IMG/VR virus record: IMGVR_UViG_3300025118_000059
Location: 1 to 37,072 of that record
Origin: a virus
Direction: 5' to 3' (one strand)
Length of the DNA stretch: 37,072 nt
Made by a program: the position numbers and the translations under genes. This document shows, piece by piece, positions 8,545 through 10,864 of this stretch. Numbering within the stretch: the stretch's first letter is position 1; each line of letters begins with the position of its first letter. The notes under the pieces were generated by a model that did no database searches, was not told where the DNA came from, and saw nothing but the letters and a program-made list of their open reading frames with translations.

Positions 8545-8592
8545 ATCGCTTTATCCACTGAGGGGAGCTTATTGGGAGGTATAGGAGGGGCC

Positions 8593-8688
8593 ACATTCTT
8601 ATACATGTGTGTCTTGTGTATGGCGTTAAGTGTTAAACATTAAGAGTTAATCATTAAGTAAAACATCTTAAGTAACACACAAGAATGT
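8593..8688 (-). promoter_or_regulatory. Fold-back structure at the 5' end of the late mRNA
   Basis: The first bases of the predicted late transcript (ACATTCTT then GTGTGT on the minus strand, 8688-8675) are complementary to 8593-8600 and 8607-8612. They would form a 14-bp stem with one 6-nt bulge. The stem closes a loop of about 60 nt that holds the TTAA heptads. It would place a helix at the 5' end of the late message, possibly stabilising it or controlling terS translation. Confidence 0.45.
8625..8673. repeat. Seven-base phased TTAA repeats in the late leader
   Basis: Seven consecutive 7-nt units read GTTAAGT, GTTAAAC, ATTAAGA, GTTAATC, ATTAAGT, AAAACAT, CTTAAGT on the plus strand. Six of the seven carry TTAA at the same position. 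The block covers roughly +15 to +63 of the predicted late transcript. A 7-bp period does not match a DNA helical turn, so an RNA target or a closely packed operator are both possible. Confidence 0.6.
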
Positions 8689-8693
8689 AGTAT

Positions 8694-8722
8694 ATTATAC
8701 CATATTTTTAATCAAAAGTCAA
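8694..8722 (-). promoter_or_regulatory. Strong sigma-70 promoter for the late operon
   Basis: On the minus strand, TTGACT (8722-8717) and TATAAT (8699-8694) are separated by exactly 17 bases, and TGG directly before the -10 box makes it an extended -10. Five of six -35 bases and all six -10 bases match consensus. The predicted start is near 8687. The phage has no RNA polymerase gene, so the host enzyme should transcribe the terminase-to-fibre arm from here. Confidence 0.85.
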
Positions 8723-9133
8723 TCTCTTTATTATAATCTCCATTATTCCTCCATAGTTACCCTCGCGCCACCCCCCCTTAGATTCTTTGGTTGTCTGAAC
8801 TAGAACTTATTATTGACTTATCTATTATTCATTCATTTGATGTCTTTTACTCTTACATTCATCCCACTTATGTGTCATATGGTCATCCCCTCCTGTCCTC
8901 CTCTCGTATTCCTGAATTCCCTTCTCATGTGCTTATGACTATGAATACACTTTTGTCTCCACACCACAGGGGGTCCCCCACACCCCAAATACCACAGAAC
9001 ACCAGTGAAGTCAATAGCGTGACTAATGGTGTCTGAATAGTCATAAACTGGAGGTGTAGTCATATGTAGACTTGTGTGGGTGTGTGAGTTCCAGAGATTG
9101 ACAGAAGAAAGAGCCTAAGAGTGTGGCTCTAGA
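8723..9133. other. Non-coding stretch between late promoter and repeats
   Basis: No convincing gene lies here. Open frames in it are short, lack a plausible SD and show no recognisable protein. Visible features are a perfect GGGGGTCCCCC palindrome at 8969-8979, a C-run at about 8771-8777, a GACTA...TAGTC inverted repeat around 9020-9042 containing TGTCTGAATAGTC, and a 6-bp hairpin (AGAGCC/GGCTCT) at about 9110-9131. Otherwise I see nothing assignable. Confidence 0.5.
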
Positions 9134-9238
9134 GGGTACATTAGCAAACACTTATGGGTACATTAGCAAACACTTATGGGTACATTAGCAAACACTTATG
9201 GGTACATTAGCACAACCAACAGACCATACACATTAGCA
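9134..9238. repeat. 22-bp tandem repeats (iteron-like)
   Basis: Three perfect 22-bp units, each GGGTACATTAGCA followed by AACACTTAT, occupy 9134-9155, 9156-9177 and 9178-9199. A partial fourth (GGGTACATTAGCA) is at 9200-9212. A fifth copy of the core ACATTAGCA is at 9230-9238. Cores are 22, 22, 22 and 26 bases apart, about two helical turns, so bound proteins would sit on one face. They could be an origin or a cluster of activator sites for the early promoters. Confidence 0.85.
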
Positions 9239-9258
9239 CATACTACTATTCACATAGG

Positions 9259-9274
9259 TGTCGCATAGCAGACA
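9259..9274. promoter_or_regulatory. TGT-N10-ACA palindromic site 1
   Basis: TGTCGCATAGCAGACA has 4-bp inverted arms (TGTC/GACA) and is followed by the palindrome GACATATGTC (9271-9280). The spacing TGT-N10-ACA is the form of the NifA-type upstream activator site. It lies about 150 bases upstream of the first sigma-54-like element. Confidence 0.35.
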
Positions 9275-9299
9275 TATGTCGCTTGTGAGATAGTTTAGT

Positions 9300-9315
9300 T
9301 GTCTGATTATAGACA
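9300..9315. promoter_or_regulatory. TGT-N10-ACA palindromic site 2
   Basis: TGTCTGATTATAGACA has 5-bp inverted arms (TGTCT/AGACA). It is 41 bases (about four helical turns) from the first such site and about 110 bases upstream of the first sigma-54-like element. A close relative, TGTCTGATTAGAC, overlaps the start of transcription at the SSB promoter (13840-13852). Confidence 0.4.
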
Positions 9316-9316
9316 T

Positions 9317-9354
9317 AGCCCTACAAGCTCCTATGAGGCCGTCTAAGGGCTTTT
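9317..9354 (+). terminator. Possible hairpin/terminator upstream of the early promoters
   Basis: AGCCCT (9317-9322) pairs with AGGGCT (9346-9351), with a weak inner CTC/GAG pairing, and TTTT follows. The loop is long and the U-tract short. It might stop read-through into the early promoter region or be incidental. Confidence 0.25.
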
Positions 9355-9407
9355 GTCTGTTAGGTAGGTGTTAGTATAGGTAAACTATTTACGTTGAAAT
9401 TCCATAG

Positions 9408-9424
9408 TTGGCACAGGACTTGCT
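9408..9424 (+). promoter_or_regulatory. Sigma-54 (-24/-12) promoter-like element 1
   Basis: TTGGCACAGGACTTGCT matches the RpoN consensus TGGCAC-N5-TTGCW at every fixed position, with GG and GC 10 bases apart as required. A start is expected near 9434-9436. The element points toward the early genes. Confidence 0.6.
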
Positions 9425-9443
9425 AGGGGTTTTAGGTGCAATG

Positions 9444-9460
9444 TTGGCACGTTAATTGCT
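9444..9460 (+). promoter_or_regulatory. Sigma-54 (-24/-12) promoter-like element 2
   Basis: TTGGCACGTTAATTGCT is a second exact match to TGGCAC-N5-TTGCW, 36 bases after the first. It also carries the preferred G after TGGCAC. A start is expected near 9470. The palindrome ACGTG-TG-CACGT (9461-9472) lies over the predicted start, and the octamer GCACGTTA occurs at 9448 and 9468. Confidence 0.6.
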
Positions 9461-9528
9461 ACGTGTGCACGTTAGGTAATAGCATGGGTTATATTCCTAT
9501 GTGCTCTAAGGCTTATAACAAAACGGTA

Positions 9529-9556
9529 TTGTACTTTTCTCAAGAACGTGTATAGT
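9529..9556 (+). promoter_or_regulatory. Possible sigma-70 promoter for early genes
   Basis: TTGTAC (9529-9534) and TATAGT (9551-9556) are 16 bases apart, about 50 bases before the first early gene. The -10 is good (5/6) and the -35 weak (3/6). It could give basal early expression alongside the sigma-54-like elements. Confidence 0.4.
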
Positions 9557-9609
9557 GGTACTCAAGTCAAAGGCAAACAGCCAACGGCACCACATAAGGA
9601 ATTACTAAT

Positions 9610-9849
9610 ATGTCTACTTACACTGATAACCAGAACCAAGCAATTAATTTTATTATGAACATTGCAGCAATTAATAAGCCAGATACAAAACTAGTTACCA
9701 TGCTTGTTATTGGCTTTAATCTAGACTATCAAGACCTACTGCATATAATGCCACATATTATCGAGCAGTGCTTCAACGGCTTAAACCGTGATTGCGGTAA
9801 CTGGGCAATCGAATTGAATGCTGTAATAATGACGGAAGCTTATCGTTAA
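9610..9849 (+). CDS. Early small protein 1 (79 aa, unknown)
   Basis: First gene of the rightward operon, with an AAGGA SD. The protein begins MSTYTDNQNQAINFIMNIAA and is mixed helical, with a hydrophobic patch (LVTMLVIGFNLDYQDLLHIM). No family is recognised. Its place as the first early gene suggests a host-takeover or defence-evasion role, which is inference from position only. Confidence 0.75.
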   Translation: MSTYTDNQNQAINFIMNIAAINKPDTKLVTMLVIGFNLDYQDLLHIMPHIIEQCFNGLNRDCGNWAIELNAVIMTEAYR

Positions 9850-10162: not shown

Positions 10163-10864
10163 ATGAGTAACGGATACGTAGTATATAAAGGCCCATCTAT
10201 GTTAGATCCTAAATCTAATATTGTGGCTATTGTCACAATGAAAACTAGTAATGCTAAGACTGGCGACATGGCACAGCTATGGATTCTAGACGCAGACACT
10301 AACCCCGTTGAGGCGACCAAGACGGGCCAAGATGCGAGCGTATGCGGATCTTGCCCACATAGGCACTATAATGGTGGCGCTTGTTATGTAAACGTTGGAC
10401 AGGCCCCAAACAGCGTATACAAAGCATACAAGCGCGGCAGTTATAATTATGGTCTACCTGCTTATACTGATAAGGGTATACGTTTAGGGGCGTACGGCGA
10501 CCCTGCAGCACTGCCATATATCGTTCTATACAACATTACAACATGCTTTAGTGCGCATACTGGATACACCCACCAACGCAAGCACAAGCTATTTGATGCC
10601 CGTGTATTAGCACTAGTACAGGTATCCGCTGATACGCCTAAGCAGGCATTACAGGCCCAAAAGGCCGGTGGTAAAACCTTTCGGGTTAAGTTAGTGGGTG
10701 ATAGTCTATTGCCTAACGAATTAGAGTGCTTAGCAGATACTAAAGGCATATCATGCGCAGAGTGCTTGCTTTGTGACGGCAATAAAGCTAATGTAGCTAT
10801 AACAGTACACGGTTCACGCTCTAAGCGCTTTAAGAGCCAGTTAATTGAACTAAAAGAGGTATAA
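10163..10864 (+). CDS. Early 233-aa Cys-rich protein (unknown)
   Basis: A well-supported gene (GGAG SD, largest of the early block) beginning MSNGYVVYKGPSMLDPKSNI. Cysteines are clustered: CGSCPHRHYNGGACYVNVGQ at about 62-81 and CAECLLCDGNKANVAI near 201-216, which look like two metal-binding or structural Cys centres. A central region holds ITTCFSAHTGYTHQRKHKLF and a C-terminal basic patch (HGSRSKRFKSQL). Similar proteins of unknown function occur in early regions of other phages, so I give no function. Confidence 0.8.
   Translation: MSNGYVVYKGPSMLDPKSNIVAIVTMKTSNAKTGDMAQLWILDADTNPVEATKTGQDASVCGSCPHRHYNGGACYVNVGQAPNSVYKAYKRGSYNYGLPAYTDKGIRLGAYGDPAALPYIVLYNITTCFSAHTGYTHQRKHKLFDARVLALVQVSADTPKQALQAQKAGGKTFRVKLVGDSLLPNELECLADTKGISCAECLLCDGNKANVAITVHGSRSKRFKSQLIELKEV

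Follow-up and report, generated by a model that had tools for sequence, protein, structure and literature searches.

Why would a phage place promoter elements of the sigma-54 type in front of its early genes? Transcription by sigma-54 polymerase depends on an activator and reads the physiology of the host (nitrogen, envelope stress, motility). The window, by which we mean the whole stretch of DNA that was analysed, is an entire virus record of 37,072 bp with two divergent gene blocks. The rightward genes encode thymidylate synthase, PhoH, primase/helicase, DNA polymerase, exonuclease, endonuclease and ribonucleotide reductase; the leftward genes encode the large terminase, the portal and the major head and tail proteins, and the largest ORF (722 aa) lies within this structural block. 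According to the ORF list, the annotation of the terminase and its neighbours, and the arrays found in the equivalent gap of relatives, a non-coding gap of 1,065 bp (8545–9609) separates the leftward packaging block, which extends to 8544, from the rightward early genes, which begin at 9610. This gap may act as a regulatory hub; the gaps of relatives hold sites for host proteins and possibly an origin. No tRNA or Rfam element was found in the window, and a family search with the first early ORF (9610–9849, + strand, 79 aa) returned no match.

Within the gap, TGGCAC-N5-TTGCT occurs twice on the + strand with no mismatches, at 9409–9424 (TGGCACAGGACTTGCT) and at 9445–9460 (TGGCACGTTAATTGCT), with a start-to-start distance of 36 bp. 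In element 1 (TTGGCACAGGACTTGCT, 9408–9424) GG lies at 9410–9411 and GC at 9422–9423, and the predicted transcription start is near 9435. In element 2 (TTGGCACGTTAATTGCT, 9444–9460) GG lies at 9446–9447 and GC at 9458–9459, and the predicted start is near 9471, about 140 bp before the first early ORF. Both elements carry GG at −25/−24 and GC at −13/−12 with the exact spacing of TGGCAC-N5-TTGCW, the bases at −20 are A and G, the base at −21 is C, and both lie upstream of the early genes and point into them. The earlier note had described two tandem, consensus-perfect elements, the only obvious ones in the genome, at the place of an early promoter. This description held throughout: the two are the sole perfect matches in the 37-kb record, the reversed-motif control gave none, and placement and direction are supported across the clade.

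About 0.035 exact matches are expected by chance in 37 kb on both strands (10 fixed bases plus W), and two perfect copies on the same strand, 36 bp apart in the sole long non-coding gap, are far beyond chance. Only the perfect pair is informative, because the record contains 18 matches with up to two mismatches versus 17 in shuffled sequence. Scored with a matrix derived from 29 ChIP-mapped Salmonella sigma-54 sites (PMC3844500), elements 1 and 2 obtain 16.9 and 15.6, the two highest values of the genome, with reference sites ranging from 15.8 to 23.0. However, the best match per random genome averages 13.9 and can reach 22, and hence a single matrix score is not significant alone. Moreover, the pair is kept in two further contigs of the same species, in which the gap is 99.6–99.7% identical.

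Relatives were picked by terminase similarity alone, blind to the motif, and the DNA upstream of the terminase was examined in 39 loci resembling that of the window and in 58 more distant ones; many of these loci are contig fragments, and the sequence counts are not phylogenetically independent. With Y at −21 in the motif, 25 elements with the N5 spacer were found in 16 of the 39 window-like loci and 77 in 20 of the 58 more distant loci, giving a total of 102 versus 0–1 for spacers N3, N4, N6 and N7. The Salmonella matrix scored 16 of 39 and 24 of 58 loci as positive, and matrices with N4 or N6 gave 0–4. Elements of relatives cluster into arrays at one place, as in L133, where nine follow each other in the order > > > < > < > < >. 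Among 13 related arrays, pairwise divergence was 0.04–0.07 at most core positions but 0.41 where the spacer is freest, and DNA outside the elements diverged by 0.32; in four close genomes the GG/GC blocks diverged by 0.00 and the flanks by 0.14. This pattern reflects purifying selection that acts on precisely the bases contacted by sigma-54. The scan of relatives proposed in the earlier note had a divided outcome: the core is kept relative to spacer and flanks, but about 60% of the terminase relatives are without elements, including L043, L044, L047 and L052, whose terminases are 83–85% identical. So frequent an absence suggests that the elements are gained and lost, perhaps with the host.

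The orientation of the elements is informative as well. In the terminase relatives, 80 of the 102 elements point toward the early genes and 22 away, and no arrangement, out of about 22 distinct ones, has more elements directed away from these genes than toward them. Some relatives contain inverted, overlapping and nearly abutting elements, which cannot all fire or be occupied at once. In L053, L058, L060, L395 and L399, an element resembling element 2 is followed by TTGCTACG. Because relatives can have as many as 12 elements in an array, part of them inverted, and certain close relatives have none, the simple picture of two promoters in the earlier note is incomplete.

Given that the elements of this clade are directed at the early genes, they are best understood as host sigma-54 promoters, and we consider it probable, on comparative grounds, that the window elements are genuine sites of the host sigma-54 (RpoN) polymerase and form an early-gene promoter in this clade. 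In the earlier proposal that sigma-54 elements gate the early genes, the identity of the recognition elements is strongly supported by spacer specificity, core conservation, the purine at −20 and the Salmonella matrix, and the gating would proceed as follows. Genes for sigma-54 activators were not recognisable in the window or in 41 array-bearing or related records; a phage-encoded activator was rejected on this basis, activation would come from the host, and early expression would be conditional on the host state. From the sequence, location, orientation, conservation and specificity of the elements, together with this lack of a recognisable phage activator, we infer binding, transcription, dependence on the host state and a role for site multiplicity. 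At DNA entry, host E-sigma54 would sit as a silent closed complex on one or both elements. A host enhancer-binding AAA+ ATPase, not encoded by the phage, would then open the complex, and early transcription from near 9435 or 9471 would run only while this host activator is active. Repetition of the sites (2 in the window, 3–12 in relatives) would lead to higher occupancy by a scarce sigma factor. In addition, the dominant spacing of same-strand elements is 25–29 bp, or about 2.5 helical turns, which may leave room for several closed complexes next to one another; helical periodicity outside this peak was not clearly separable.

Other sources of early transcription were also considered. From 8745 to the start of the first early ORF at 9610, the + strand has no sigma-70-like promoter that matches at least 9/12, which is weak evidence in a region of this size. 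No phage RNA polymerase was recognised among the window proteins scanned with PHROGs or Pfam; promoters of a single-subunit phage RNA polymerase were rejected, as neither search matched such a polymerase and the 722-aa ORF, the largest, is in the structural block. If host sigma-54 promoters are indeed the correct reading, infection by a lytic phage lineage would depend on the state of the host and on rpoN.

In a blind scan of IMG/VR, two tandem elements were found in at least 120 stretches versus 8 with a six-base spacer, and three in a row likewise in at least 120 stretches of viral contigs; both viral numbers are lower bounds. In 257 Gb of bacterial and archaeal genomes, three in a row occurred in six stretches, one of which is a microsatellite, leaving five credible ones. 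Among the matches listed, clustering joined 107 array-bearing loci to the protein cluster of the window, and the terminase family of the window recurs in 109. Long phage records have almost all of their exact elements in a single cluster, with 0–1 in the reversed-motif control, and sites of a host regulator, here sigma-54, are concentrated in a skewed manner in one region of the genome. The array signature is easily detected and was found in many uncultured phages; searches from three unrelated array-bearing contigs found no cultured relative with a known host.

These arrays also bear on a second explanation, in which the elements bind host E-sigma54 without productive activation, so that they sequester the sigma factor or park the polymerase and thereby silence host responses or delay phage genes. 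E-sigma54 occupancy can be repressive (PMC4551910). Arrays of up to 12 elements, mostly spaced near the packing limit of polymerase, inverted and nearly abutting pairs in relatives, and the absence of a phage activator all fit such a decoy. In unrelated phages, moreover, uniform arrays show little regard for direction, 27 having the same and 20 the opposite direction as the next gene, and several arrays lie between convergent genes. However, those orientation counts rest on crude gene calls, the clade of the window itself is strongly biased toward the early genes, and the two sites of the window are too few to titrate sigma early in infection. Hence we regard a decoy as an unlikely account of the window, although it stays a rival because arrays without direction bias or between convergent genes are hard to understand as promoters. 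A further version, which we also hold to be unlikely, is that the dedicated non-coding arrays of many unrelated phages are a DNA trap for sigma-54 polymerase, with closed complexes on opposite faces at the spacing of about 2.5 turns, and that the window pair is a small version doubling as early promoter. If arrays do trap sigma-54, they would be a DNA-only way to shut off host responses.

Another possibility is that the elements are operators or replication iterons of a phage-encoded protein, to which the likeness to sigma-54 sites is incidental; the earlier note had offered direct repeats bound by a phage protein as its alternative. The regular spacing is iteron-like, and the equivalent gap in some relatives has clusters of DnaA boxes or other repeats, as an origin would. 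The fine specificity of the elements speaks against it. Although position −20 was absent from every search pattern, 99% of 257 clade elements and 96% of 337 elements of unrelated phages have a purine (G or A) there. Even the ratio of the two purines is similar, with G.71/A.28 in the clade, G.69/A.27 in unrelated phages and G.66/A.34 in the Salmonella sigma-54 sites. One would not expect this rule to recur in unrelated phages if the binder were a protein specific to a single phage family. Because the same specificity, including the exact N5 spacer, recurs there and matches bacterial sigma-54, the phage-protein reading is weakened, and we judge it very improbable. Bacterial sigma-54 promoters, such as Salmonella rpoH (TGGCACGGTTGTTGCT), glnA and pspA (PMC3844500), share with the phage elements the −24/−12 bases, the exact spacing, the purine preference at −20 and C/T at −21. 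They differ in that bacterial sites are mostly single, whereas the phage sites are arrayed in tandem or inverted order, an arrangement that bacterial genomes hardly ever show. The least probable explanation is chance resemblance or a functionless relic in the window genome: random genomes can reach the individual matrix scores and some close relatives miss the sites, but two perfect adjacent copies stand in the sole long gap, in three contigs of the species and at the position of conserved arrays in relatives.

A comparable arrangement exists in a cultured phage. VpV262, whose host is Vibrio parahaemolyticus, has an array of six elements at 173–346, before the early genes and just inside the terminal repeat, and these are the six best Salmonella-matrix matches of its genome. 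No sigma-70-like site of 9/12 or better was found in positions 1–1034 of VpV262. Like the window, this member of the Zobellviridae has a short-tailed layout, rightward early and leftward late genes and a sigma-54-type array in the early leader, and several of its genes resemble those of the window; unlike the window, it has an unrelated terminase, a relaxed base at −15 and six elements in both orientations. An RpoN regulon of V. parahaemolyticus has been published (PMC9817140), and VpV262 offers a cultured test system. Roseophage SIO1 (Zobellviridae, Cobavirinae) resembles the window in its layout, in having ThyX, primase/helicase, polymerase (37% identical), RNR and PhoH and in having no annotated RNA polymerase, but it contains zero exact sigma-54-type elements. 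Other Zobellviridae-type and further phages that were fetched, some of them as partial genomes, had one or two scattered matches at most and no array.

We found no paper on arrays of sigma-54 sites in phages in the open-access literature. Among published ideas, the closest concerns the clusters of CtrA sites in phages of alphaproteobacteria, described as 'lytic deferment' (Mascolo et al. 2022, PMC9437464), and by analogy the sigma-54 case could work alike. In both cases, consensus sites of a host master regulator are confined to one region, which in some cases is a gap of about 1 kb between divergent gene blocks, and the clusters arose in several unrelated phages. The differences are that the regulator here is sigma-54 rather than CtrA, and that the elements are promoter cores rather than activator sites. 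CtrA sites themselves (TTAA-N7-TTAA) occur 3 times in the window versus 1.1 expected, which is no significant excess, and none lies in the gap.

The gap contains further elements. A repeat search identified three perfect tandem copies of a 22-bp repeat, GGGTACATTAGCAAACACTTAT, at 9134–9212 on the + strand, with partial copies up to 9244, about 200–275 bp upstream of element 1. In L069, L082, L085, L086 and L089, CATAAGTGT, which the window repeats contain on the reverse strand, is repeated just upstream of an element, and L081 has one copy. These repeats are candidate sites of an upstream activator or of an origin. On the − strand, a strong sigma-70-like promoter (TTGACT-17-TATAAT, extended −10) at 8694–8722 faces the packaging genes. 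It is contained in a block of 48 nt (8690–8737) that matches non-coding DNA of Pseudoalteromonas phage Slicky01 at 90% identity, and this shared block may hint at a host among the Alteromonadales.

An origin based on DnaA boxes was rejected for the window, which contains no cluster of TTATCCACA and no single copy. In relatives, perfect host DnaA boxes (TTATCCACA) are clustered upstream of the terminase in L393 (7), L461 (11), L397, L401 and L395, where they take the place of sigma-54 arrays or are added to them; such clusters are likely a host-DnaA origin or a means of DnaA titration. In L442, at 1147–1320 upstream of the terminase, and also in L437, L447 and L451, repeats resembling CAACAGTTAGACTTAGG occur in about 5–7 copies at intervals of about 31 bp.

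Many contigs (L232, L257, L290, L131 and both ends of G002) start or end inside or beside an array, which would be assembly breakpoints or genome termini. In the large phage records G018 (39.0–42.8 kb), G021 (5.9–15.6 kb) and G017 (82–104 kb), sigma-54-type elements are spread over several to about 20 kb, many as pairs or triplets, and in L187, a locus of G017, three clusters lie for the most part on the minus strand in surroundings where most ORFs are on the plus strand. The early gene at 10163–10864 of the window belongs to phrog_2554, a family of unknown function; it shares about 52% identity with genes from 145-kb Klebsiella/Proteus phages and 46% with one from Pseudoalteromonas phage KB12-38, and genes of this family also lie near arrays in L154, L215, L219, L221 and L234.
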